This document shows positions 12,117 through 36,253 of a DNA stretch of 46,292 nt, in pieces (position 1 is the first letter of the stretch; each line of letters opens with the position of its first letter). The notes beneath the pieces were generated by a model, which did not search any database, was not told the origin of the DNA, and worked only from the letters and a program-made list of their open reading frames with translations. Both the position numbers and the translations under genes were made by a program. The stretch comes from an uncultured Verrucomicrobiota bacterium (GTDB lineage: Bacteria; Verrucomicrobiota; Kiritimatiellia; Kiritimatiellales; Tichowtungiaceae), in assembly GCA_903826865.1 (NCBI GenBank), contig CAIKGD010000064.1, positions 1-46,292 on the forward strand. Direction: 5' to 3'.

Positions 12117-12782
12117 TCAGTGTCCCAGAAAATGACTCTGGAAGATATCGATGCCTAGATAGCTTTTGACGAAATAGATAATCAACATGATGCATATCCC
12201 GATGCTCAGGGCGAGGACGCCCAGCGCAAGCATCAGAGCCAGAATATTTCCGAAAAGCGGCGCGCCGTACCGGAAAGACTGCTGGGCGATGACGCGCAGG
12301 CGGTAAAGCCAGTAGGGGGCGCTGTATATCTGTTTATCTATGTCTTTCTGGTCGCGCAGCAGCTGCTGCTGAAGCGTTTCAATGTCGTACTGACGGACTG
12401 CTTCACGTACGGTCTGCTGAATGTCAGTCGGCGAGGCTGGTTTTTTAATGAAACGGAATATCTGCCCCTCGTTAATGGCTTTGATAAACTGGTCAGTCTC
12501 AAGCGCCGCGCTGAAAAGCACACTTTTGATCTGCGGGTTCCGCTGCTTGAGTGTGATCAGAAAGTCAAGTCCGCTTTGGCCGGGAAGGATATGGTCGCAT
12601 AGAATAGCCTTAACATGACGCCCGCGCAGAACCTCGACGGCTTCTTCAGATGACCCCGCCTGATAAAGGGTGTATTCCTTCTGCAATACCCGGTAGAGTA
12701 CCTTCAGCATAAACGCATCGTCATCGATAATCAGGACGGCGTCCTTTTCTTTCGAGGCAAACTCTTGGGGTATATCAGTCAC
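12117..12782 (-). CDS. Response regulator receiver protein with C-terminal membrane segment
   Basis: Residues about 14-130 form a CheY-like receiver with all key residues: acidic pocket Asp20-22 (IIDDDA), phosphoacceptor Asp63 (LCDHILPG), Ser91 and Lys113 (FIKKP). Instead of a DNA-binding or enzymatic output domain, a helical linker leads to a hydrophobic stretch around residues 172-207 that should span the membrane once, then a short tail. It starts at GTG 12782, overlapping the AlkP-like gene by 8 bases, and is the last gene of the operon. A sensor kinase is not encoded nearby. A role in placing or gating the upstream glycan enzymes at the membrane is only an inference. Confidence 0.75.
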   Translation of the reverse strand: MTDIPQEFASKEKDAVLIIDDDAFMLKVLYRVLQKEYTLYQAGSSEEAVEVLRGRHVKAILCDHILPGQSGLDFLITLKQRNPQIKSVLFSAALETDQFIKAINEGQIFRFIKKPASPTDIQQTVREAVRQYDIETLQQQLLRDQKDIDKQIYSAPYWLYRLRVIAQQSFRYGAPLFGNILALMLALGVLALSIGICIMLIIYFVKSYLGIDIFQSHFLGH

Positions 12783-13929
12783 AATAGCCGGTCTCCTTGT
12801 GCATTAGATGATAGATTTGATGTATCTTTGTCAAGCTCTCAGGCAGTTCGCGGTTGGAACAGATGGATGCTGCTGAGTCTGCATCCTGCGGAGAATAGCC
12901 GTGCATTCCTTTAATCTGCTTAATACCCATGAAGCTGGGAACGATCTGAATGCCGGAATTTATTAAGAAAATAAGTTCACCGTACAGATGGTCGGCAAAG
13001 TAAATTCCTTCGTGTTTCAACGCATCATCGGTCAGAAGGCGGCCCTTCGGGTGAGTATTCAGTCGAGCTGTGATTTTCTGACGGGCTTCGTCGGTTAAAA
13101 ACCAGAAACGTGCCATGGTGGAATCATAGAACGCGACATAATCCTCATTCCATCGCAAACCGGTTTCTTGAATGTCGGAGATCAAATCATATCCTTCAGT
13201 GATGTCGTGCATCCCGTGGTCGGTGAAAACATACCACGAAACCTCTTCATAATGCTCTTCTGCTGTCGTAATCAGACGGCGCACCTGTTGATCGTACCAA
13301 TGGATCAGCTCAGTAACTTTCGGATCGCGCGTGCCGACAGCGTGCATCAGAGCATCAAGTTTTCCGAGTGAGCAGTAGGCAAACTCAATGCGCTGCGATT
13401 CGATGTCTGCGGTAAGGCGCGCCAGCTTGGTTTCGTCGCTTACGGCGCTGTCGTGAACGTAATGCGGAATGCCGTGCCGTGCTAACTTGTCAAAAATTGT
13501 TTCACCGTGCAACAATCCGCCCGGTACCCATATTCGTTTTTTTTCAGCGTAATTGAAAAGCGGAAGATATTTAAACGGAACGCCGTAGAGCTGGAAATAG
13601 CCGGTGAATCCCAGCACTTTTTTTATCAGCCGGCTTAAGTAGTGCCGCACCCGCCCGCGCAGGAAAATTGAATCCGGCAGAATCGCCAGAGCTCTTGTCC
13701 ATTTGAAAGGCGAGCCTTTGGGGTCGTAATAAAATGACGACCACATCAGGTGCTCGCAAGGCAGTTTGCCGGAAATAATCGACGGATCACACGCCGAGGA
13801 ATAGCCCAGAATGGTGTCGAGTTTTTTATGGTCGCGGATCAGTCCTTGCAGGAAGAACGGGTGGCGGAGAAAAATTTCCCTGCCGAACGCATCAATAAAA
13901 ATAAAAAGACTCAGCTTTGGCTTTTTCAT
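12775..13929 (-). CDS. Alkaline-phosphatase-superfamily protein (type I phosphodiesterase/nucleotide pyrophosphatase-like)
   Basis: The 384-aa product has the metal-binding pattern of the AlkP superfamily: an N-terminal Asp in LFIFIDAFG (D13), a Ser-rich candidate nucleophile region GYSSACDPSIISG (about 42-54), the metal ligands FTDHGMHD (about 235-242) and a late His in KGMHGYSP. There is no signal peptide, so it probably acts in the cytoplasm. The frame is open further upstream, but the ATG at 13929 forms an ATGA overlap with the preceding gene and begins at the first beta strand. Substrate is unknown; its operon partners suggest a phospho-sugar, nucleotide or polyprenyl-linked intermediate. 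Confidence 0.7.
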   Translation of the reverse strand: MKKPKLSLFIFIDAFGREIFLRHPFFLQGLIRDHKKLDTILGYSSACDPSIISGKLPCEHLMWSSFYYDPKGSPFKWTRALAILPDSIFLRGRVRHYLSRLIKKVLGFTGYFQLYGVPFKYLPLFNYAEKKRIWVPGGLLHGETIFDKLARHGIPHYVHDSAVSDETKLARLTADIESQRIEFAYCSLGKLDALMHAVGTRDPKVTELIHWYDQQVRRLITTAEEHYEEVSWYVFTDHGMHDITEGYDLISDIQETGLRWNEDYVAFYDSTMARFWFLTDEARQKITARLNTHPKGRLLTDDALKHEGIYFADHLYGELIFLINSGIQIVPSFMGIKQIKGMHGYSPQDADSAASICSNRELPESLTKIHQIYHLMHKETGYCD

Positions 13930-15044
13930 GAAAACCTTTGCTGGAGAGCATAGAAAGCCCGGCACAGATCTTCAAATCCGTTTTCATCGGTGTGAAGCAG
14001 CCAGCGTATTTCTTCGCGGTCCGGATGTTTCGTCAGCAGCAGCAGCGGCAGCGCCGCATAAAGCCGCAGGCGCGGATGGGCAAAGCAGTACGGAAGTACG
14101 CGCGGCCCGAAGGTGCGCAGGTTGTGCATCGCGTTTTTCAGCGGTGAACCTTCTGTTCCAAGGTTTGGAAAAGCGCGCGCATATTTTTCAAGAGTCGGGA
14201 ACTTTCGGTTGAGCCGCCGCGGCTCATACCACATAAAAAAACGTTCGTAGCGTTGTACAGTTTCTGCAAACTGCAGATGAATATTTTTGCTTTCCAGAGC
14301 TTGAAAATTCACCCGCTCTTTGAAGTCAATCGCACGGCTGTAAGCGTTAACAAAATCGCACGGATCGTTCAGTCCGGACAGGTCTGTTTCCGGCAGACGG
14401 TGTTTTTTGACGACATACGAAAGGTCGTAAGCTCCGCGCAGCAGCAGCGCACAATCGCCGAAGGCCAGATCGGCCTTAAACAGGAATTTAATGAAGCGGT
14501 GACGCTCTTCACGCGTCAGTGTTTCGGGCTGGGCGAGCCGGCGCTTGATGTCGAGCAGCAGCTTACCGCGGTTCATCAGCAGGCGCGTACCTTCCGAAAG
14601 AGGAATGGCGCAGTTTGGATAGGCCGGCAAGGCATCGAGAATCGTTTGGTCGCCGCGGATTACGCGGTGGCCGTACTTCATCTCGTAGTTCAGTAATGAA
14701 AATTCGCATTTCGGCAGCGCGTTCTTAAGGTAGGGATAGAGATCAACCGGCAGGCCCAGTTCTTCTGTAAGCGTCTTTTCCAGTTTCTTGAGCGCGCGTT
14801 TCAGCAGCGGATCAAGCGAATTTGTTACCACAATCAGGTCATAGTCGTTGAACGGTAGCTCCTGGTCGTCCGGGCCGATCATCGGTGAACCTTCGCCCCG
14901 CCCGTAGCCGCCAAGCAGCACCAGCGCTTGCCAGTGTTTTGAAAAGGGGGAAGCGTACAACGCGTCGGCGATACGCTTCATGTCCGCATCAATGCGGGCA
15001 TCGAACGCCGGTGAGCCTTTAACGGAATATTTACCCACGGGCAC
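13926..15044 (-). CDS. Nucleotidyltransferase-fold protein of unknown substrate
   Basis: The 372-aa product carries the polymerase-beta-like nucleotidyltransferase signature: GGYGRGEG (residues 45-52), then NDYDLIVV (D67 and D69 as candidate metal ligands), followed by a long helical part with many Arg/Lys residues. It starts at GTG 15044, overlapping the GT2 gene by 14 bases, and its TGA overlaps the ATG of the AlkP-like gene. The position between glycosyltransferases and a phosphodiesterase-like protein suggests transfer of a nucleotide or nucleotide-derived group in glycan assembly, which is inference. No closer family is recognised. Confidence 0.6.
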   Translation of the reverse strand: MPVGKYSVKGSPAFDARIDADMKRIADALYASPFSKHWQALVLLGGYGRGEGSPMIGPDDQELPFNDYDLIVVTNSLDPLLKRALKKLEKTLTEELGLPVDLYPYLKNALPKCEFSLLNYEMKYGHRVIRGDQTILDALPAYPNCAIPLSEGTRLLMNRGKLLLDIKRRLAQPETLTREERHRFIKFLFKADLAFGDCALLLRGAYDLSYVVKKHRLPETDLSGLNDPCDFVNAYSRAIDFKERVNFQALESKNIHLQFAETVQRYERFFMWYEPRRLNRKFPTLEKYARAFPNLGTEGSPLKNAMHNLRTFGPRVLPYCFAHPRLRLYAALPLLLLTKHPDREEIRWLLHTDENGFEDLCRAFYALQQRFS

Positions 15045-15870
15045 CTTCTTTCAGCCCCCGGTAAAGACCGGTGTGGATGACGGCGCGGTAGGCAATGTTA
15101 TAGGGAATCGTGTCGAGCCGACCTTTGCGAACGGCATAGAGCAGATCGCGCGCCCACTCTTTCAAAAGTTCCAATGTTTGTAAAAACAGGTTGGCGTGCC
15201 GGCCGTAGGTTTGCGCAAAGGTCACACCGTGACGGAACTTTTTGTGATACAGCCCGTTAAGCGTGTAATTGTGAGAGTGCTCAACCGTTGAATCTTTGAC
15301 CAGTTTGAAGCTTCCGCCTGCCGCCCGGCAGAGTTTGGCCCAGGCGACATCTTCGGCGTAACCCTGTTCCGGAAATTTTATTTTTTTCCAGAGGTCTCGC
15401 CGGAAGGCGCAGGTGACAGCGGAGAAAAAGTCGGCGTTGTTTTCTTTGATGTTCTTCGGATCGTAAGCGCGCAGATAATCGTAAGCGACGATGAAATGCG
15501 CGTCTGGGCGGGTTATCTGTGTGCTCATTACGGCATCGGCTTCGCCGGCGAAAAGCGGACGGAGCAGTTTTTCGAGCGCATCATCGCTCAGAAAGATCGC
15601 ATCGGCGTTTTGGAAAACAACGAACTCCTGCGTTGTTCTTGCGGTCATATCATTGAGTACCTTGCCCGGGATGTAAGCGGCAGAAGGAATACAGATCAGA
15701 TGGGCGGCATCTACTGCGGCGCGCAGGATTTCCAGCGAACCGTCAGTTGAACCGGAATCAACAGCGAACAGTTCAATGTCTTTGAACGTCTGCCGCTGAA
15801 GACTGGCGATAGCTGCCGGAAGGTACGGCATCTCGTTTTTTGAGCGCATGATAACGGCGACGCGACTCAT
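15031..15870 (-). CDS. Family 2 glycosyltransferase
   Basis: The 279-aa product has the GT-A fold start of GT2 enzymes: VAVIMRSKNEMPYLPAAIASLQ, then AVDSGSTDGSLEIL, and a FQNADAIFLSDDAL segment in the place of the metal-binding DXD. Later EDVAWAKL resembles the acceptor-side ED motif. It resembles rhamnosyltransferase-type GT2 proteins. It begins in an ATGA overlap with the GT4 gene, so the pair is translationally coupled. Donor and acceptor cannot be read from sequence. Confidence 0.82.
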   Translation of the reverse strand: MSRVAVIMRSKNEMPYLPAAIASLQRQTFKDIELFAVDSGSTDGSLEILRAAVDAAHLICIPSAAYIPGKVLNDMTARTTQEFVVFQNADAIFLSDDALEKLLRPLFAGEADAVMSTQITRPDAHFIVAYDYLRAYDPKNIKENNADFFSAVTCAFRRDLWKKIKFPEQGYAEDVAWAKLCRAAGGSFKLVKDSTVEHSHNYTLNGLYHKKFRHGVTFAQTYGRHANLFLQTLELLKEWARDLLYAVRKGRLDTIPYNIAYRAVIHTGLYRGLKEGARG

Positions 15871-17003
15871 AATCCCGCAGTCCTTTCGTAGATGTCGAGA
15901 GTCTGCCTTGCTGTGCGGTTCCAGTCAAACTCCGCTGCATATGCAATACCGTGCAGGCGCTTCTCCTCGCTCCAGCCTTCCAGGAGTGTTTTTTTCAGAC
16001 ATTGCGTAATTTCTTCGGTGCTGTGCGGATTGAATTTCGGCACCACATTTCCGGCGATTTCGCGCATGGAAGAAGTGTTTGAGCACATGACAGGGGCTCC
16101 GCAGGCGAGGGCTTCAATGATCGGAAACCCGAACCCCTCGAAGAGCGAAGGGAACGCCATGAGATCGCAGACACTGTAGAAAAGCGGCAAATCCTCCAGA
16201 GGAAGGAATCCGGGAAAAAGAATATCGCCATGTACCGGACTGGCTGCAGCGCGTGCGCGGATGACGGGCGCACCGTTCCAGTCGGCACCCGGCAGTACCA
16301 GTTTGTGCGGGCTGTCCGTTTCCGCCTTGAAGCGCTCGAATGCCTCAATCAACCGGACATGGTTTTTCGCCGGATGTTCCAGCCGTGAAACATAAATTAT
16401 GAAAGGCTTGCCGAGGTTGTACTTTTCAGCGAGTTGCGCGCGGGCGGCCTGCTTTTCGACAGGCTTGAAAATCTGATGGTTGATGCCGGAGTAGAGTACG
16501 GTGATCTTTCCCGGCGGTACGCCGACACGCTCGACGATGTCTTTCTTCGAATAATGGCTGACGGTGATGATATGGTCAGCATTGCGAATCTGGGCCGGGA
16601 CGATGCGGCGGTTATAGAACATCCGCGCGGCGTCATATTTGGCGTCCATCGAAAGGGTGGCGACGTCGTGAACGGTTGCGACGATCGGACAGGTTTTCAC
16701 CAGTGGAATCCGCCGGTAGCTCGGCACATGCAGCAGATCAAACTTTTTGATCTTTCCAATGAGCGGAAGCATGGTGTTGTGCCACGCGATATTGACCACC
16801 GGATGGGAAACAACCCCGGAATAGAGGGTTTTGTAAAAATTCGGCGAGGTCAGTTTGATCAGATCGGCTTCGCGTAACGGCATCATGATATCGTAGTGAC
16901 TGACCGGATCTTCCTGCTGGAGGTGCCGAATCAGTTCCCGGATGTAGGAAGCCACGCCGGAGCGTCCCCCTTGCATTACAAATGCTGAAAATCCAATGTT
17001 CAT
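15867..17003 (-). CDS. Family 4 (GT-B) glycosyltransferase
   Basis: The 378-aa product is a retaining GT4: an N-terminal acceptor domain with a glycine-rich loop (MQGGRSGVASYIREL), a linker with YVSRLEHPAKNH, and a C-terminal donor-binding domain with the EX7E-type motif FPSLFEGFGFPIIEALACG (near residues 285-303). It is the first gene of the five-gene minus-strand operon. It probably adds a sugar to a lipid-linked or surface glycan on the cytoplasmic side of the membrane. Confidence 0.87.
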   Translation of the reverse strand: MNIGFSAFVMQGGRSGVASYIRELIRHLQQEDPVSHYDIMMPLREADLIKLTSPNFYKTLYSGVVSHPVVNIAWHNTMLPLIGKIKKFDLLHVPSYRRIPLVKTCPIVATVHDVATLSMDAKYDAARMFYNRRIVPAQIRNADHIITVSHYSKKDIVERVGVPPGKITVLYSGINHQIFKPVEKQAARAQLAEKYNLGKPFIIYVSRLEHPAKNHVRLIEAFERFKAETDSPHKLVLPGADWNGAPVIRARAAASPVHGDILFPGFLPLEDLPLFYSVCDLMAFPSLFEGFGFPIIEALACGAPVMCSNTSSMREIAGNVVPKFNPHSTEEITQCLKKTLLEGWSEEKRLHGIAYAAEFDWNRTARQTLDIYERTAGL

Positions 17004-17424
17004 TGACGGCGGATTCTAGCCATACCGGAGCAGTTTTAAAACAAACTTCCCTGTAAAAGTTGGATTCTTAAAAGCACATGGGTGGATTGTGCGCCTTTTG
17101 CGATATTCCGGATGGCCGGACTGGCTGAAACTTCAAACTCAAGCTGGCGTATTTCCCGTTCTGCCTCAATGAGAATTGTCAGTGCGTGCGGTTTGAAAAC
17201 CAATCACGCCATTGTGCTGCGAAAGCAAGCTTCGCATGCAGGCCGCGACGGGCCCGACACTTTTCTTTTATCGGTATCGCAACCCCGGACACATCAACCA
17301 GAAATTTCTGAAATTAACTTTACAAGATACATAAATTCAGTTTAAAAGAAATGAAATACATTCAATACAACACAAGAGTTGTAAACAGTAACAGCACTAT
17401 GGCGATGATGTGTTCGGAGGCGCA
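17004..17424. other. 420-bp divergent intergenic region
   Basis: This region separates the minus-strand operon from the large secreted-protein gene and should hold both promoters, though no clear -35/-10 pair stands out. It contains a 12-bp perfect palindrome CAGAAATTTCTG (17299-17310) and a weak 6-bp stem TGCGAA/TTCGCA (17218-17236). A weak minus-strand open stretch at about 17030-17200 has no start-site or family support, so I see no gene here. Confidence 0.35.
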
Positions 17425-20400
17425 ATGGGAAAGACAATAGTTTTTGGTCTATGTATTGCAGTTGCGGGACTGCCTCCCGTAATGCCGGTTTACAGCAGCA
17501 ATCTGATTGTCCATGGAGAAGCCGCGAGTAACGGACTGAATGTTGTTATACATACACCGGACGAGTTTACAAATCGCGTCGAGATTTTCGCCTGTTCTGA
17601 TCTCATTTCCGGCGACTGGCGCGTTGCAGCTGAAAATCTGCGTCTGGTCGGCGGCAATCCAGCCCGATGGTATACAGAAGTTGATGATACCGGTTTTTTT
17701 ATGGCTGAAAACATGGACATAGACAGCGATGGCGACGGGCTGTCAGATGCACGTGAAAAATATGTTCATAAAACAGATCCGTTGGTATCTGACAGTGACC
17801 GCGACAGGATGCCGGACCGGTGGGAAGTTCAGCATGCACTTAATCCTCTGAGCGACGCAGACGCTACAGCTGATCGGGATGGCGACGGGATGAATAATCT
17901 GGAAGAATATCAGACAAGTCCGGACTTATCTTCATCTGATCTGGACGGTGATGGATTTATTGATGCTTACGACCGGAATCCTGACGCGTTTGACTATCCA
18001 GTGGGCGGAGAAAGCATATTTAACATGGTCGCATCGACATGGTCTATAGGTTATGCGTATGCATTTGGGTTCAGTTTGCATGGAGAACAGCTGTTGACCT
18101 TGCGTTGGAGTGATGATTTCTTTTTCCCGCCGCATCCCGATCATCATAATGGTGGATTTTGTACCGCAGGTTCTTCCAGTCTTGAGTGGGTTGGTAAAGG
18201 GTTGCCCGATGACGGTTTCTTTTTTTACCGATTCAAGGATTATTATTGGTGGCACTTGGATTTATTCTGGTCGTCATGGAAGCCCTCATTACACCCCAGC
18301 TTCCACGGGCTGGAGCTTTATGAATATGACAGGTACTTTAGTGATCCCGACAGAGGAGCTGCGGACGCTGTGGCCGAGGCCATGGCGGAATATGTGTTTA
18401 ATAACCCTTCATTTCTTAGCGATATTCATGCCCCGACAAACGGTTCCGGCCACGTTCATTTACTGGGGGGAAGCGATGATGGTTCTCAGCGTTGTGTGAT
18501 ATTTACTGTTGACCCGTCCAAATCGGCCACTGTGTGTTTTCTGGAAAGTTCCGGAAAGATGAAAGCGGTAGACTATGCGGTCTCCACGTATGACGGATAT
18601 TCACCAGGTACCGGTTTACCGTCATCTCAGACAGCCAGATTTAAATTTATTTTCAATCAGCCGGTCACAAACAAAACAATCAAGTGGCTAACGTACAATT
18701 ATGATTATGACGTAGCATGTCACGTGAATTTTGCCATTCACCGGTGCGAAGTGAACGGGATAGAAAGTGAATTGTTTGGTCTTAACTCATCTGAAATGAT
18801 CGTACCGACTGTGGATTTGAACGGAGATTTTGACTCGGATGGTGATGTAGATGCGGACGACACCATTTTGCGCGCCTCTGCAGATGCAAGTTTACGGGTC
18901 GTTCAATCAGGTCGGGCAAGCGAAACGCCCGGAAACGGAGTCGTGTCTGTAACTGTCGGCTCCAATGTGATTGAACCCATCGTGCCTGAAAGCGTACTGA
19001 GGATTAAATTTTCAGGCGTTGAACCGGGGGAACTCTTCCGTCTTTGGAGCACAACCAATATAATCCCGGAAGAACCGCCGGCGCAGGGGGTAATCGGCGG
19101 GGGCGGGGGCCGGGTTGAACGGATTGCCGATCCTCCGTTACTCATCAGCACCGAAGAAGGATTCGACTACGCATGGCCGGTTAAAAACATCTCGCCGCTT
19201 ATGCAAGGGCGCGACTATATTTGCAGATACACTTACACGCCGGAATTTCCGAAAACGCTTTATCTTGAATGCGTTTCCTGCGGTGCAACTAACGATGGCC
19301 GGGCAAAAATTGAACTTATCTATGAATACAACGGGGAAGAAATCTGCTCTGCCGCCTTGCCGATCACCGTGATCCGCTCCAAGCTTATACCCGACTGGAA
19401 CCATGATCGGATGATCGATGCGGACGATCAAAATCAGAGCACAAACAACGCCCCGTTCCGGTTCTGGATCAATGACGACAATGACAATGGAGATATATCC
19501 GAAGGGAACAGTGATGTGCCCGGTCAAGGCGGCGGGTGGCTTGATAATGCCAATTACAAGGACGGTAAGGTGAATGGACGCAGCGATCTGCTGGACTTTT
19601 TTCCAGTCTGGCTCGATATAAAATTGGCGCTGAACAACTATCCGGTTACCAATGGTGCCGTTTACAAATTGAGACAGGCTGACGAAGCTCTGCGATTTGT
19701 CTATACCGACCTGACCCGCGCTCATGCCGGAGATTACCTTGTCGTCAGCAATAGCACATGCGGTGTTGCATTCAGCCAAAACGCCTGCGAAGCCGATACC
19801 GTCAAGATTGACTCGTCGGGGGTAACGCTTAACACCAACTTCCTGAACCGGATTGTTGCCGACCCCGACAAAGGCGTCCTGATGATGGAGGCGATAGCTC
19901 CGTCAACTTCGCCGCTGATACTCGAAATCTGGCAAAATGACAGCAAAGTCTGGGAGACCAGCCTTGCCCTGAGCTTTTCGGGTGTTGAGGCCATGTATCG
20001 TAAAGTGAACCTGCGGAATATGGAGAATCCGGGCATTTTAACCGAACCGGCTAATAATCCTGACGCTTCCAGCAACGGCAAGAATCTTGTCTTCCTGCAT
20101 GGTTACCAGCCGGATGTTGGTGACAGTGGCGATATGTCCACCTGGTTGGCGGAAATGTTTAAGCGGTTCTATCAGTCGGGATCAAAGGCAATGTTTCACG
20201 GGATTTTGTGGTATTCCAATCAGGGCGATCCGATGGATTACCAGAAGAATGTCACCAACGCTTTTCAAACGGCACCGGTATTGAAGAGTTACGTTGACGG
20301 ACTCAGCGGGCCTGTGATCGCAGCGGCGCACAGTCTCGGGAACATGGTGGTGTCGAGCGCTATCGTCGATCAAAATATGACGGTGTCCAGGTACATGATG

Positions 20401-21267
20401 TGCGACGCGGCGGTGGCTTCAGAGGCCTATGATGCAACCATGCTGCAGGATGACCGATTAGTTAATGAATGGTGGGCCGACTACAGCAGCCGGACCTGGG
20501 CAGCCAACTGGTATCAGCTTTTTTCAGAAACCGGTGATTCCCGTGAGAGTCTTACATGGAAAGATCGGTTCGCCGATATCGGCACTAGCACCGAGACTTG
20601 GAATTTTTATTCCACTGGGGATGAAGTGTTCGCTTTGACACCAAATCAGGGATTGTTTGCCGGCACCATAGGCGTTGATGCGGACTGGCGTTTCATCATT
20701 CCTGTCGGAGTGGATGTTAACGTCAACTTTGGCAGGCATTCGTGGCAGAAGCAGGAATTGTTTAAAGGTTGTCGTTACTCCGATGGATGGACAAGCTTTG
20801 GCGGAACAAGTTATGCCGGTTGGGGCTTTGAATCAGACTTGCAGTTAACCATCTGGCATGGGCTGCCCGCGCTTGTATTGGTTCAAACATATACTAATGC
20901 CGCCGGAGCAAATATGGCAACAGATGAACAATTGCGCAGTTATCCCGTTTTTGAACATGACCCGGACTGGCTGACAAGTACCGGTGTACTTTCTCTCGCT
21001 CAGATTAATGAAATACTTTGCATGGGCATTCCATCCCTCACACCTTCGATTGGTAAGACGCAAATCAAAATGAGCATCATTCCGGCCGAAAAACAATTTA
21101 ACTTAAATAGTGAGAATGCTAATGAAGTTAATTTTAAACCGAATAGTTGGCCAACAAGACCTCGTCCGGACTTGCAGAACTGGCTTCACAATGACATGAA
21201 GGATGTAGCGTATTTCTATAGCTACAAACTGTTCGACAGAATTGCTTACATTGGAGGTATAAAATGA
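17425..21267 (+). CDS. Large secreted protein with TSP3-like calcium repeats and lipase-like alpha/beta-hydrolase domain
   Basis: The ATG at 17425 follows GGAGG by 4 bases and begins a signal peptide (MGKTIVFGLCIAVAGLPPVMPVYS); the frame is open from GTG 17410. Residues about 100-190 hold Asp-rich thrombospondin-type-3-like calcium repeats (DIDSDGDGLSDAREK, DSDRDRMPDRWE, DRDGDGMNNLEEY, DLDGDGFIDAYDRN). Two more EF-hand/dockerin-like loops occur near residues 475 (DFDSDGDVDADD) and 660 (DWNHDRMIDADD). The last third looks like an alpha/beta hydrolase: LVFLHGY, a nucleophile elbow AHSLGN (Ser near 970), GDEVF (Asp near 1066) and RHSW (His near 1105). Substrate is unknown. It ends in an ATGA overlap with the next gene. 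Confidence 0.75.
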   Translation: MGKTIVFGLCIAVAGLPPVMPVYSSNLIVHGEAASNGLNVVIHTPDEFTNRVEIFACSDLISGDWRVAAENLRLVGGNPARWYTEVDDTGFFMAENMDIDSDGDGLSDAREKYVHKTDPLVSDSDRDRMPDRWEVQHALNPLSDADATADRDGDGMNNLEEYQTSPDLSSSDLDGDGFIDAYDRNPDAFDYPVGGESIFNMVASTWSIGYAYAFGFSLHGEQLLTLRWSDDFFFPPHPDHHNGGFCTAGSSSLEWVGKGLPDDGFFFYRFKDYYWWHLDLFWSSWKPSLHPSFHGLELYEYDRYFSDPDRGAADAVAEAMAEYVFNNPSFLSDIHAPTNGSGHVHLLGGSDDGSQRCVIFTVDPSKSATVCFLESSGKMKAVDYAVSTYDGYSPGTGLPSSQTARFKFIFNQPVTNKTIKWLTYNYDYDVACHVNFAIHRCEVNGIESELFGLNSSEMIVPTVDLNGDFDSDGDVDADDTILRASADASLRVVQSGRASETPGNGVVSVTVGSNVIEPIVPESVLRIKFSGVEPGELFRLWSTTNIIPEEPPAQGVIGGGGGRVERIADPPLLISTEEGFDYAWPVKNISPLMQGRDYICRYTYTPEFPKTLYLECVSCGATNDGRAKIELIYEYNGEEICSAALPITVIRSKLIPDWNHDRMIDADDQNQSTNNAPFRFWINDDNDNGDISEGNSDVPGQGGGWLDNANYKDGKVNGRSDLLDFFPVWLDIKLALNNYPVTNGAVYKLRQADEALRFVYTDLTRAHAGDYLVVSNSTCGVAFSQNACEADTVKIDSSGVTLNTNFLNRIVADPDKGVLMMEAIAPSTSPLILEIWQNDSKVWETSLALSFSGVEAMYRKVNLRNMENPGILTEPANNPDASSNGKNLVFLHGYQPDVGDSGDMSTWLAEMFKRFYQSGSKAMFHGILWYSNQGDPMDYQKNVTNAFQTAPVLKSYVDGLSGPVIAAAHSLGNMVVSSAIVDQNMTVSRYMMCDAAVASEAYDATMLQDDRLVNEWWADYSSRTWAANWYQLFSETGDSRESLTWKDRFADIGTSTETWNFYSTGDEVFALTPNQGLFAGTIGVDADWRFIIPVGVDVNVNFGRHSWQKQELFKGCRYSDGWTSFGGTSYAGWGFESDLQLTIWHGLPALVLVQTYTNAAGANMATDEQLRSYPVFEHDPDWLTSTGVLSLAQINEILCMGIPSLTPSIGKTQIKMSIIPAEKQFNLNSENANEVNFKPNSWPTRPRPDLQNWLHNDMKDVAYFYSYKLFDRIAYIGGIK

Positions 21268-23512: not shown

Positions 23513-24880
23513 TTAGATGTGCTTCAGCGCGGCTTTGCCGATCGAATAGACGTTGAAGCCGATCTTATGCAGGGCTTTGTGGTCGAGGTGGTTTCGTCCG
23601 TCAAACAGAAACGCGGGCTGAACCATGCCGTCAAAGATTTTCTGGTAGTCGAGCGTCTTGTACTCTTTCCATTCGGTCAGCAGCGCGACGGCATGTGCGC
23701 CTTTGGCCGCCTTGTACGGATCCGGCTCAAAATTGATGCGGTCAATGACGTCGGCCAGATCAATCTTGGCGTGCTCCAGCGCCTGCGGATCGGTGATGAC
23801 CACTTCGGCGTTTTCTTCCAGCAGTTCGCGGGCGATCAGAATCGCCGGGCTTTCGCGCGTATCGCCGGTATCCGCCTTGAAAGCGAAGCCGAACAGCGCG
23901 ATGCGCTTGCCGGCGATCGTGTTGAACATTTCCTTGAGCATACGGGAAACAAAGCGGCGTTCCTGATACTCGTTCATCTTCACCACCTGCCGCCAGTATT
24001 CAGCCACTTCGTGCAGTCCGTAGCTTTCGCAGAGGTAAACGAGGTTCAGGATGTCTTTCTTGAAGCAGGAGCCGCCGAAGCCGACGCTGGCTTTCAGAAA
24101 TTTCGGGCCGATCCGGCTGTCCATACCGATTGCCCGAGCCACTTCGCCGACATCGGCGTCGGTCGCTTCGCACAGCGCGGAAATGCTGTTGATGGAACTG
24201 ACGCGCTGGGCGAGGAACGCATTAGCCGTCAGCTTGGAAAGCTCGCTCGACCAGAGGTTGGTGGTGAGAATTTTTTCTTTCGGAACCCACGCGGCATATA
24301 CATCAACCAGCGCCTTGATCGCTTTCTTGCCTCTGGCTGTCGGATGGCCGCCGATCAGAATGCGGTCAGGATTTTCCAGGTCGGCGATGGCGGTGCCTTC
24401 GGCCAGAAATTCGGGATTCGATAGAACATCGAAGTGAACTCCGTTTTTTCCGCTGTCGAGAATACGCTCCATCGCGGCGGCGGTACGGACGGGCAGCGTG
24501 CTCTTTTCGACCACGATTTTGTCGGAGGTGGAGAGTTCCAGAATGCGGCGGGCGCACTTTTCCCAGTACTGCAGGTCGGCGGCGCAGCCCGCGCCGTGAC
24601 CGAACGTTTTGGTCGGCGTGTTCACGCTCACAAAAATGATATCGGCTTCTTTGATGCCTTTATCCACGTTGGTGGAGAAAAAGAGATTTTTGCCGCGCGC
24701 CGCCTTGACCACTTCGTCGAGACCCGGCTCGTAGATCGGCAGATTATCGGAGTTCCAGGCGTCGATGCGCTTCTGGTTGATGTCCACCACGGTCACTTTG
24801 ACCTTCGGATTTTTTTTGGCGATCATCGCCATCGTTGGCCCGCCGACATAACCCGCGCCGATGCAGAGAATTTTGACCAT
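23513..24880 (-). CDS. ugd: UDP-glucose 6-dehydrogenase, animal-like type
   Basis: The enzyme oxidises UDP-glucose to UDP-glucuronate for surface polysaccharides. The 455-aa product starts [21 protein letters not shown] and shows the Rossmann motif [36 protein letters not shown], the catalytic Cys region [10 protein letters not shown] and [16 protein letters not shown]. Many of these stretches match vertebrate UGDH better than the usual bacterial Ugd as I recall them. The ATG at 24880 has AGGAG upstream; the longer open frame reaches into a repeat (24908-25050) and its extra residues (MEGRLPRRP) are repeat-encoded. UDP-glucuronate could serve glycosyltransferases such as those at 15-17 kb. 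Confidence 0.93.
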
Positions 24881-24907
24881 AATCAACTCCTGTAATCTTT
24901 TCGAATC

Positions 24908-25050
24908 TGGAGGGCGCGGTTCCACCCGCGCCATATTTAAATTCGGACGGCGTGGAAGCCGTCCCTCCACCCATCCATCAGGACGAAACTGACAGGATGT
25001 ATAACCGTTTTCCGAACCGCCCGCCAGCCCTTGCTGCCGGAAAGTTCTCT
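24908..25050. repeat. REP/BIME-like repeat, copy A
   Basis: This copy starts with two hairpins facing each other. The left one is GGAGGG, arm CGCGG, loop TTCCAC, arm CCGCG, CC (24909-24932). The right one is its inverted counterpart with stem GGACGGC/GCCGTCC and loop GTGGAA (24945-24968). About 80 bp of conserved tail follows. It is near-identical to copy B at 26213-26356. The copy fills the whole gap between mbpB and ugd, ends at the mbpB stop codon and places hairpins in the ugd 5' leader. Confidence 0.85.
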
Positions 25051-25636
25051 ATGAGCGGGCGAATGCGATCAGCGGTTGAATATCGAATCGGTCTGCGGCG
25101 CGCAGTGCGGCAATGTAGGTTGAGCGGGCATCACTGGCGTTTACAAGATTTTTGCCGCCCCACGTGAACCTTGGCTGATGCAGTACGTTCTCCAGAAGAA
25201 GATCCGCCATCAGGCGCGCATGCCTTCCGTTGCCGTTCGAAAACGGGTGAATGGATACCAGCCGGTGATGCAGACGCGCGGCCATTTCGTCGGGCGGCAT
25301 GGGTTTGGCTTCGATCCATACCGTGACGTCGGCGAAAAGTTTTTTCAGTTCGACCGGAACCTGATGCCACGGCCCGCCGATGTTTTTATCGCTGAGCCGG
25401 AATTTACCGGCCCACTTCCAGACGCTGCCAAACATTTTCCGGTGCAGTTTGCGAATGAACTGTTCATTCAGAATATCTTTCGGACGGGTTGATTCCAGCC
25501 AGCCCAGCGCCTCCAGAATATTGTCCAGTTCCCAGCGGTCGAGTTCGCTTCGCGAGGTGATGTGTGTCAGCTTGAGTCCTTCAATCTCATCGGGATCAAG
25601 CGGTGTGGCTCCGTCAGGATAATCAAAGTTAATCAT
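25049..25636 (-). CDS. mbpB: Fic family protein, mobile mystery protein B
   Basis: The 195-aa product is a Fic-fold protein with a full active-site motif HPFSNGNGRHAR (residues 130-141), the motif that catalyses transfer of AMP or a similar nucleotide group to protein hydroxyls. The N-terminus (INFDYPDGATPLDPDE) and the WKWAGKFR segment are typical of mobile mystery protein B. The ATG at 25636 lies 6 bases after GGAG in the tail of mbpA; a TTG at 25648 is an alternative. With mbpA it forms a two-gene module known from mobile and plasmid settings. Toxin activity is inferred. Its TAG touches repeat A. Confidence 0.88.
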   Translation of the reverse strand: MINFDYPDGATPLDPDEIEGLKLTHITSRSELDRWELDNILEALGWLESTRPKDILNEQFIRKLHRKMFGSVWKWAGKFRLSDKNIGGPWHQVPVELKKLFADVTVWIEAKPMPPDEMAARLHHRLVSIHPFSNGNGRHARLMADLLLENVLHQPRFTWGGKNLVNASDARSTYIAALRAADRFDIQPLIAFARS

Positions 25637-25638
25637 GT

Positions 25639-26091
25639 TCAGCTCCAAAGCGCGGTTGGATTCTCGATCAGCTTTTCGACGGTTTCCTCAAAAACCTTCC
25701 GGTTTTCCTCTTCGCTGAGGGCCTGATCTTCAAGACCCATCGTTTGGGAAACCTGCGAAAGACGCTTGGAGGCAACTTGCCCGGCCTGCTTGCGCAGGGT
25801 TGTCTCCAAATCGGTTTTCGGAACAAACCCGTAAACGAAAACGCAGTCCAATCCTTCGGCGACCCGGCGCATGGTTTTCAGCGTGACCGCGCCGGAGAAT
25901 TCGCCCTTCTCAACGACCGCAATCCGCTGCTGAGTCATTCCTGTACGCCCGGCCAGCTGCTTGGCGCTCATACCCAACGCATCGCGAATTGCACGAATCC
26001 AGCCTTTTTTAGGGGTTTTAACCTCTAAAAGTGCGCTGAATTGAGACAATTTCGCCCCAAGTTGCTCTCGGACAAGGTTTTTATTTTTCAT
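25639..26091 (-). CDS. mbpA: XRE-type HTH regulator, mobile mystery protein A
   Basis: The 150-aa product has an N-terminal helix, then a helix-turn-helix of the Cro/CI type (about residues 30-85; WIRAIRDALGMSAKQLAGRTGMTQQRIAVVEKGE) and a C-terminal extension with FVYGFVPKTDLETTLRKQA, the layout of mobile mystery protein A. It is the likely antitoxin or autoregulator for the Fic protein downstream. AAGGAGG precedes the ATG by 5 bases. Three phased operator-like palindromes lie directly upstream (26118-26197). A classic Fic-inhibitory motif was not found in it, so inhibition may be transcriptional or use another contact. Confidence 0.85.
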   Translation of the reverse strand: MKNKNLVREQLGAKLSQFSALLEVKTPKKGWIRAIRDALGMSAKQLAGRTGMTQQRIAVVEKGEFSGAVTLKTMRRVAEGLDCVFVYGFVPKTDLETTLRKQAGQVASKRLSQVSQTMGLEDQALSEEENRKVFEETVEKLIENPTALWS

Positions 26092-34462: not shown

Positions 34463-36253
34463 CTATTCTGGACGGTACAGTTGAACTTCTGCAAGTGCAG
34501 GGATTCCTTCTTCACTTGTCATTGTTATGCGAAATTTCCTGGCGATGATTGTTTGAAAGTACCCTTTGAAACCAAAGCCTTCCGTTTTACCTTCCGCAAT
34601 CTTAATCCACCTTTTATTTTCCATTGCCTCGAGCGTAAAGGTCTGGCTCATGCGCCGACGGAAACCAGGCTCATCGAATCCAAACCCAGCAATAGCTGTA
34701 TCTTGCACAAGATCGATTTCAACAGAAGCTGATTTTACATCTTTGGGAGCCAGCCAGTATTTTTTGTCAGTGCCATCCAGGATGTTTTCCGGTGCACTAT
34801 TCGGATCTGACCCTGTGGCGGTTGCGGATGCACCGACTGTCGGCAATGGCACTGCGGCAGGCTCCCCGTTGAGTTCAAGCACAACGACAGTATCAGTTGG
34901 ATCCGGTGCGGTATTTGGTACGGAGATCGCCAGTCGGTTGGGTTCGCGCGTAATTTTCAGTGGTGTGTCGGGAGAGGTTAACAACCAGGCGGCTTTAGCT
35001 TCGCTTTGCAGTGGAACGAGTAGTTGTCCGGTTAACGGCCACTTGAATACGTGCAAGTAGAGCCGATTGTCTTTTCGGGTAGCGCAACCCCATGAGAGAT
35101 TAAAGAATGGACCGGCGTGAGTTCCATAGATAGAATCACTGTTTATTTTTAGCCAGCGGCCGACCTCCTGCAAACGCTCGACACACGGTTGAGGGAATTC
35201 CCCCTCTGCAGTTGGCCCGACATTCAGAAGAAGATTCCCGCCTTTGGAGCAGGTTTCTGCCAGCTTCCGGATGAGATCGGCGGAGGATTTCCAATTCGTA
35301 TCGAGTGCATTGTAGCCCCAGTGGTCATTCATCGTCATGCAGGTTTCCCAGTCGCCCCTGTAGCCTAAAACCGGAATGAATTGCTCCGGTGTCGAGGTAT
35401 CACCTGCGAATCCGGGTCCGAGCCGATTGTTAGTGATGAGGCCGGGCCGCAGTGTTGTCAATGCAGCCAGCGGAGCCGCACGCTGTGCATTCATCCACTT
35501 CGGTGTATCCCACCAGAGAATATCAATTGGGTAACCTGTCAGGATTTCTCTCACCTGCGGTACGGCAATATTTTTCAGATAGTCATCAAAACTGCCTTTT
35601 TGTGCGTCATCCCAGCCGCCGCCCTCTTCGTATTTGAATATTCGCCCGCCTTTGGCGCCACCCCGATGAACCCAGTCTTGCGCCTGTGAATAATAGAAGC
35701 CGATTTTCAGTCCGTCGCGGTGCGCGGCATTTACCAACGGGCCGAGCAGATCTTTTTTGTATGGAGAGGCATCCGTGATATTCCAATCGCTAACTTTCGA
35801 TGGGTAAAGGGCAAAGCCGTCATGATGTTTAGCTGTGATAACAATATAGCGCATACCGGCGTTTTTTGCTATTTTTGTCCACAATTCGGGATTGTATTTT
35901 ACTGGATTAAATTGCACAGAAAAAGCGCGATAATCCTGCACAGGGATTTTCGCAAGATACATTATCCATGCGTCCGAGTCGGTTATATTGCCATATTTAC
36001 CGGCGGGCACAGCGTATACACCCCAGTGGATAAAAAGGCCGAATTTAGCTTCTCGCCACCACGCCATCCGTGCGTCATGCTGAGCGGCTGTCTCTTTGTC
36101 AGTTGGCGCAGAGACCGTCGGAGCCACTGCTATACTCTCTGCTCCTGTTTTATTGTCTGCTCTGACCGGAGCCACGAATGCGGCCAGCAGCAGAGCTGAA
36201 GCAATCCACCTGTGCATTCCAGATGCCGGTTTGATTATTTCCCGACCCCTCAT
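34463..36253 (-). CDS. Secreted alpha-L-fucosidase (GH29) with C-terminal discoidin-like domain
   Basis: The 596-aa product has a signal peptide (hydrophobic stretch IASALLLAAFVAPVRA), then a GH29 TIM barrel (about 60-370): KFGLFIHWGVYAVPAGK, AKHHDGFALYPSKVSDWN, the nucleophile D249 in IDILWWDTP, and NLLLNVGPTAEGEFP. A beta-sandwich follows, and the last ~130 residues resemble an F5/8 type C domain that could bind sugar. AAGGAG precedes the ATG by 6 bases. It releases L-fucose from host, algal or plant glycans outside the inner membrane. It converges with lplA, 20 bases apart. Confidence 0.92.
   Translation of the reverse strand: MRGREIIKPASGMHRWIASALLLAAFVAPVRADNKTGAESIAVAPTVSAPTDKETAAQHDARMAWWREAKFGLFIHWGVYAVPAGKYGNITDSDAWIMYLAKIPVQDYRAFSVQFNPVKYNPELWTKIAKNAGMRYIVITAKHHDGFALYPSKVSDWNITDASPYKKDLLGPLVNAAHRDGLKIGFYYSQAQDWVHRGGAKGGRIFKYEEGGGWDDAQKGSFDDYLKNIAVPQVREILTGYPIDILWWDTPKWMNAQRAAPLAALTTLRPGLITNNRLGPGFAGDTSTPEQFIPVLGYRGDWETCMTMNDHWGYNALDTNWKSSADLIRKLAETCSKGGNLLLNVGPTAEGEFPQPCVERLQEVGRWLKINSDSIYGTHAGPFFNLSWGCATRKDNRLYLHVFKWPLTGQLLVPLQSEAKAAWLLTSPDTPLKITREPNRLAISVPNTAPDPTDTVVVLELNGEPAAVPLPTVGASATATGSDPNSAPENILDGTDKKYWLAPKDVKSASVEIDLVQDTAIAGFGFDEPGFRRRMSQTFTLEAMENKRWIKIAEGKTEGFGFKGYFQTIIARKFRITMTSEEGIPALAEVQLYRPE

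Follow-up and report, generated by a model that had tools for sequence, protein, structure and literature searches.

Several described systems come close to the genes considered here. Adenylyltransferases of the AadA type use a GG/GS...DxD motif and a third acidic residue in catalysis, phosphodiesterases of the ENPP type are a second known fold family, and Wzx/Wzy-dependent assembly is an established route to surface polysaccharides. In a 46,292-nucleotide stretch of DNA from an uncultured Verrucomicrobiota bacterium (contig CAIKGD010000064.1; hereafter the window), we analysed a minus-strand operon that brings genes of these kinds together. Its first gene encodes a GT4-type glycosyltransferase (GT4; 15867..17003, 378 aa, no transmembrane segment), followed by a GT2-type glycosyltransferase (GT2; 15031..15870, 279 aa), a nucleotidyltransferase-fold protein (NTase; 13926..15044, 372 aa), a predicted cytosolic, ENPP-type member of the alkaline phosphatase superfamily (AlkP; 12775..13929, 384 aa) and a receiver protein (RR; 12117..12782, 221 aa). 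We took an in-frame ATG as the AlkP start; the mechanical open reading frame (ORF) begins further upstream, at GTG 13965. Successive genes overlap by 4, 14, 4 and 8 bases, exactly as an earlier note on this DNA had reported, and the identities it gave the five proteins agree with Pfam, the NTase match being below threshold. That note did not recognise the set as a described system, and we found no description of the NTase-AlkP pair or the gene set in openly licensed papers, a body of literature that leaves most subscription papers outside its coverage; an OpgE-type protein treated in PMC6971210 is unrelated to the pair. The fold families and the host pathway are already known, whereas the combination of genes and its proposed chemistry appear to be new.

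The NTase and AlkP are linked by their distribution. We searched one set of 387 genomes from the phylum with profiles of the NTase (A3, 43 rows) and AlkP (A4, 26 rows) at E limits of 1e-10 and 1e-20, respectively. The weakest best-per-genome matches (2e-27 for the NTase and 3e-37 for AlkP) lay far from these limits, which indicates that both match lists are discrete. Each protein was found in 98 genomes and both were found in 96, with the NTase alone in G061 and G202 and AlkP alone in G150 and G153 (Fisher 3e-86, relatedness ignored; the genomes with both span many families). Wza (PF02563), a general export marker, occurs in 316 of the 387 genomes, and therefore general polysaccharide or export capacity does not explain the match between the two proteins. 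Within the 96 genomes, the genes lie less than 500 bases apart in 27, 0.5-10 kb apart in 25, 10-40 kb apart in 11 and further apart in 2, and they are on different contigs in 31. Among genomes picked solely for the NTase, AlkP was present in 33 of 35 and in 17 of 20 of a second set (mostly Verrucomicrobia and Lentisphaerae, with some overlap with the phylum genomes), or 50 of 55 together; the five without it are G396, G398, G599, G597 and G608. Among the 185 genomes of one gammaproteobacterial order, 23 have the NTase, 15 have AlkP and 13 have both. The ten NTase genomes of that order without AlkP comprise two with 80-residue fragments, six with a degenerate subfamily and two of the main type, and two of the 15 AlkP genomes lack the NTase. 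We conclude that the NTase and AlkP truly function as a pair, and the conserved neighbourhood on which the earlier note had staked its proposal is strongly present.

Gene order and fusions extend this link to GT2. For named genomes we used the best 80 of 412 NTase relatives, a sample biased to close relatives, in which the NTase ORF was called in 69 loci; records with relatives are labelled Chlamydiae, Gammaproteobacteria, Cloacimonadota, Planctomycetota, Hydrogenedentota, Acidobacteria, Eisenbacteria and others. One of the relatives, L087, belongs to the named strain Pontiella sulfatireligans, whose genome also encodes AlkP. GT2 lies directly upstream of the NTase in 29 of the 68 loci having an upstream gene, a placement found in other phyla as well, and AlkP lies directly downstream in 28 of the 65 having a downstream gene. 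AlkP and the NTase are encoded by one ORF in L130 (the same as L132 and counted once) and in L135, which are 42% identical across the fusion. These fusions are unlikely to be frameshift artefacts because their AlkP-NTase order reverses that of the operon. A single GT2-NTase fusion (L117), which could be a frameshift artefact, and a single AlkP-GT2 fusion (L202) were also found. Taken together, co-occurrence, adjacency and fusions provide good support for the conclusion that GT2, the NTase and AlkP act in one pathway. As a separate observation, the 781-aa fusion is identical in L130 and L132, whose metagenome-assembled genomes (MAGs) are labelled Acidobacteria and Ilumatobacteraceae and bear similar isolate names, probably through a binning error.

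The surroundings of the homologues point to polysaccharide assembly. They mostly lie in polysaccharide loci, with an initiating transferase, Wzc, Wza, Wzy, Wzx and many glycosyltransferases encoded around them. We also fetched 38 stretches around AlkP genes that are mostly not beside an NTase gene; AlkP was called in 33, and in 10 of these it immediately precedes a flippase. The window operon has no flippase, polymerase or exporter alongside, and this genome carries Wza and initiating transferases (Bac_transf) on other contigs. The surface glycan proposed in the earlier note is therefore backed by the neighbourhoods of relatives, whereas in this genome Wza and the initiating transferases lie away from the operon. 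In L189 (3440-8842), the gene immediately upstream of AlkP encodes a glycosyl hydrolase family 9 protein, and the flippase has a STAS protein as a neighbour; in L220 (7080-8396), a receiver-SpoIIE protein is encoded near AlkP. Loci of this kind are therefore likely to be under partner-switch control.

The NTase carries the motifs GGYGRGEG (G45-G52) and NDYD, noticed earlier as GGYGRGEG/DYD, with candidate catalytic acids D67, D69 and D101. Ten residues (G45, G48, R49, G50, E51, G52, G131, E151, N158 and R159) are invariant in 43 members; position 67 is D in 42 of the 43, and positions 69 and 101 are D or E in 42. The only Pfam match is NTP_transf_2 (PF01909), at E 0.003 and under the curated cut-off, and this model alone matches any of the 43 members at E<=0.01, 9 in all. 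NCBIfam gave no family for the NTase, with two single-member, seemingly spurious matches among the 43. A structural search, as the earlier note had suggested, places the protein in the AadA-type adenylyltransferase fold. The predicted model (predicted local distance difference test score, pLDDT, 95.3) is closest to AadA, ANT(3,9) and AAD(9), with a best Foldseek E of 1.4e-4 and VIA Z scores of 11.2-12.5 over 209-225 aligned residues. Against the AadA/ANT family, the model shows the two-domain arrangement of a nucleotidyltransferase domain and a helical bundle (VIA Z 12.5, 219-225 residues, root-mean-square deviation 3.5-3.9). This similarity covers residues 3-279, and the C-terminal helical region (280-372) is barely covered by structural matches. 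A search with profile A3 found no PDB sequence, those of the AadA/ANT family included, at E<=1, and a single-sequence PDB search found nothing credible. Because the NTase has no sequence relation to solved structures, the substrate of AadA cannot be transferred to it. No match was found in a plasmid collection searched with the window NTase or in a phage collection searched with the NTase of L102.

AlkP matches Phosphodiest (PF01663) at 46.2 bits against a cut-off of 23, and its relatives in L089, L128 and L139 also exceed that cut-off; NCBIfam gave no family for it. The protein opens directly with the first beta strand and lacks a hydrophobic leader, which bears out the earlier description of AlkP as signal-less. 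Its predicted model (pLDDT 93.6) has the ENPP fold along the entire length. VIA Z scores of 28.5-29.5 are tied among ENPP6 (29.5), autotaxin, ENPP1, ENPP5 and the Xanthomonas NPP, and therefore their order gives no indication of the substrate. D13, S44, D192, H196, D237, H238 and H343 are invariant in 26 of 26 members and correspond to a complete metal site of ENPP/NPP enzymes, in which D, D/H, D/H and H bind two metals and a Ser or Thr acts as nucleophile. The metal residues align with ENPP5/ENPP4, and D192 to H238 and H343 align with ENPP5; D13 and S44 were placed by motif only. A single-sequence PDB search with AlkP returned antibody chains alone (E 0.03-1), which we rejected as chance.

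We also investigated the fate of the NTase where its partners are missing. In L074, a UDP-sugar dehydrogenase, the NTase and a 683-aa ORF lie in this order in a continuous stretch from which GT4, GT2, AlkP and RR are gone, and the AlkP profile found no match in its genome (G599). The L074 NTase is 74-75% identical to the window NTase and has the changes D69N and D101N, so that two of three catalytic acids are lost, which suggests a single case in which the active site decayed where AlkP and GT2 are gone. In a census of 132 distinct NTase sequences (188 rows), those from verified AlkP-less genomes have intact acids in 5, altered acids in 8 and a gap in 1, and the remainder, for which AlkP status was not separately checked in each case, are intact in 110, altered in 6 and gapped in 2 (Fisher 2e-6). 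With NNxD rows left out and six related gammaproteobacterial sequences counted as one, p is 0.017. Four of these six sequences were viewed in context and lie outside polysaccharide loci, and therefore we count L074 alone as clean evidence; the wider census is consistent with decay in L074 and is confounded. Two further degenerate relatives were seen. G221 holds a second, degenerate copy (L070, G221:C178, 9765-10886) in addition to an intact copy that adjoins AlkP. In the gammaproteobacterium G508 (L243, 6277-13142), a divergent relative with all three catalytic acids altered is flanked by rseB/rseC-type genes, a DegP-like protease gene and lepA, seemingly a dead NTase in an envelope-stress operon.

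Based on these findings, we favour, at a probability of roughly 0.42, a reading in which GT2, the NTase and AlkP work together in the cytoplasm as a module that modifies glycans in the Wzx/Wzy-type assembly of surface polysaccharides, the NTase adding and AlkP hydrolysing a nucleotidyl phosphodiester. GT4 and GT2 would add sugars to a precursor, and the NTase would move a nucleoside monophosphate from a nucleoside triphosphate onto a hydroxyl of a sugar or lipid-linked unit, a glycan hydroxyl being suggested because of the AadA-like fold, the catalytic residues and the link to GT2. As a metal phosphodiesterase, AlkP would then hydrolyse the diester made by the NTase, an activity suggested by its ENPP-type fold. 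Hydrolysis may restore the hydroxyl, in which case the group would serve as a transient cap or a checkpoint at about the time of flipping; alternatively, it may take off the nucleoside and leave the phosphate. The step is probably cytosolic because AlkP lacks a leader and can adjoin a flippase, and in this genus the membrane receiver may couple the modification to a signal. The earlier suggestion, a pathway for making and trimming a glycan that bears phosphate or nucleotide groups, fits both folds, with the chemistry predicted from them. We regard as rather doubtful the more specific proposal of a writer-eraser cycle over many phyla, in which AadA-like nucleotidylation of a lipid-linked precursor and its ENPP-type removal would act as a cap-and-release checkpoint and the NTase may be an evolutionary relative of aminoglycoside adenylyltransferases.

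Other readings give the two enzymes different chemistry. A LicD-like NTase could transfer phospho-X (glycerol, ribitol or a choline-like group) from a nucleoside diphosphate-X to the glycan, with AlkP trimming or proof-reading the phosphodiester. Some loci, such as L047, encode a PF00485 kinase and a nucleotidyltransferase with PF00483 and hexapeptide domains directly upstream of the NTase, as expected for synthesis of an activated donor, and phosphocholine complexes of ENPP6 and ENPP7 are among the tied best folds of AlkP. However, most loci, the window included, lack the kinase, AadA-type enzymes rank first by fold, and none of the 43 NTase members matches the LicD Pfam model (PF04991) at E<=0.01, which makes this route unlikely. 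We consider it distinctly improbable that the NTase makes a nucleotide second messenger, degraded by AlkP, that controls exopolysaccharide production. ENPP1 degrades nucleotide messengers such as cGAMP, which it binds in a solved structure (entry title 6ael), the module is found together with receivers and a sensor kinase, and HalB, an oligodeoxyadenylate-associated NTase, is a structural neighbour at VIA Z 10; yet the fusions and adjacencies involve glycosyltransferases and a flippase and no known messenger receptor. PADLOC models of CD-NTase and defence proteins gave no match at E<=1 for the six proteins tested, which does not exclude structures, and OAS/cGAS-type CD-NTases are absent among the structural matches listed for the NTase, which does not exclude CD-NTases.

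Structural neighbours also include the GlnE adenylylation domain (VIA Z 8.7) and DrrA (Z 10.6), as would fit a GlnE-like switch in which a protein (e.g., GT2, Wzc or the receiver) is nucleotidylated by the NTase and freed of the group by AlkP. A neighbouring 683-aa ORF in the window, L031 and L074 resembles type III glutamine synthetase by eye, but it is not conserved beyond close relatives, and the best NTase folds are small-molecule O-nucleotidyltransferases; we hold such a switch to be very improbable. Least credible is the possibility that the NTase and AlkP perform unrelated steps and merely share a mobile polysaccharide locus. They can stand several genes apart in the same region, as in the 25 of 96 genomes with 0.5-10 kb between them, but this account is at odds with the direct fusions in two divergent proteins, the co-occurrence of 96 in 98 as against export genes in 316 of 387, and the decayed NTase of L074, where AlkP has been lost.

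Several observations weigh against the glycan-modification module that we favour. The NTase has no sequence relation to any solved structure, and GT2 adjoins it in a minority of all loci, several Pontiellaceae NTase-AlkP pairs having no GT2 as a neighbour. Some Chlamydiae (L096, L098) encode the pair with no polysaccharide genes seen alongside. Five distinct NTases from genomes in which AlkP was not detected (L133, L232, L111, L115 and L229) retain intact acids; some of these assemblies are incomplete or broken, but the L229 genome, G061, has a completeness of 98%. In four NTases whose genomes do encode AlkP, NNxD replaces NDxD, and the fused AlkPs and the most distant ones have C or V at position S44.

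Signal control of the module appears to recur. RR consists of a receiver domain (PF00072) and one 43-residue hydrophobic stretch (residues 172-214) that is very conserved in six sequences, as expected of the membrane-anchored receiver named in the earlier note, and it has no output domain. In the Pontiellaceae version, GT4 and GT2 are separated by one or two receivers and a long protein, which in L089 (1396 aa) contains a solute-binding domain, PAS, GAF, HisKA and HATPase_c. Because a receiver accompanies the module in the window genus and a sensor kinase with two receivers does so in Pontiellaceae, recurrent signal control through different parts is supported. Two-component control, as proposed earlier, is thus supported by the receiver here and the kinase in Pontiellaceae, with the missing output domain of RR counting against it. 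Among upstream genes considered as the RR kinase, a 562-aa neighbour in L031 was rejected as NAD synthase.

The operon itself is more than a chance arrangement because its five genes recur in identical order in 5 of 6 same-genus genomes (its own, G026, G029, G079 and G127, the last four at 64-89% identity per gene). G318, the sixth, does not show the five-gene order; its NTase is a distant one, and AlkP lies 4.5 kb from it. Among named relatives of the operon, which are Verrucomicrobia/Kiritimatiellales MAGs, all five genes are present in L072, L075 and L076, and the visible part is kept in L071 and L073. Pfam assigns GT4 to Glycos_transf_1/Glyco_transf_4 (PF00534/PF13439, above cut-off), GT2 to Glycos_transf_2 (PF00535) and RR to Response_reg, names that we rejected as too broad for a substrate clue. 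A promoter scan found 4 candidates against 3.8 expected, which is chance level. The 683-aa ORF lies convergently downstream and a divergent region lies upstream, where a plus-strand gene (17410-21267) encodes a 1285-aa protein whose one Pfam match, to a bacterial TSP3 repeat, is near threshold. A UDP-glucose/GDP-mannose dehydrogenase (23513..24970, minus strand; PF03721/PF00984/PF03720) lies ~6.5 kb upstream of the operon in the window, directly upstream in same-genus L033 and L034 and one gene away in L031, and is a possible supplier of nucleotide sugar. It is adjoined by a Fic/DOC gene (25049-26091, minus strand), which a helix-turn-helix gene precedes, and the window also encodes an alpha-L-fucosidase with an F5/8 type C domain (34463-36253, minus strand).

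If the favoured reading is true, bacteria labelled Verrucomicrobia, Lentisphaerae, Chlamydiae, Cloacimonadota, Eisenbacteria, Acidobacteria and Gammaproteobacteria would have in common a so far unrecognised polysaccharide step, two unnamed enzyme families would be assigned a function, and AadA-type resistance enzymes would have a possible housekeeping relative.

Compared with known systems, the window NTase resembles ANT(3'')(9)/AadA and AAD(9) in its nucleotidyltransferase and helical domains, its GG/GS...DxD motif with a third acid and its Z scores of 11-12.5, but it differs from them in having no sequence-level match, an additional helical region at the C-terminus that contains a conserved PR.R motif, a polysaccharide gene context and a paired phosphodiesterase. 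AlkP shares a whole-length fold (Z 28-29.5) and two-metal site with ENPP5, ENPP6 and the Xanthomonas NPP, and its profile matches ENPP4/5/6/7 and the Xanthomonas enzyme; unlike these, it is predicted to be cytosolic, is tied to the NTase and GT2, and has a proposed Ser nucleophile that is Cys or Val in distant fused members. LicD/fukutin-type phosphotransferases likewise bring an NTase-like fold to glycan modification, with kinase and nucleotidyltransferase genes nearby in some loci of the present family, whose 43 members are set apart by the absence of a LicD Pfam match. Finally, the loci of relatives, with Wzx, Wzy, Wza, Wzc, an initiating transferase and glycosyltransferases, are like Wzx/Wzy-dependent exopolysaccharide loci, including those associated with exosortase, whereas the window operon is a satellite separate from export genes, and its NTase and AlkP would be additions to the described parts of that pathway, among which they were not found.

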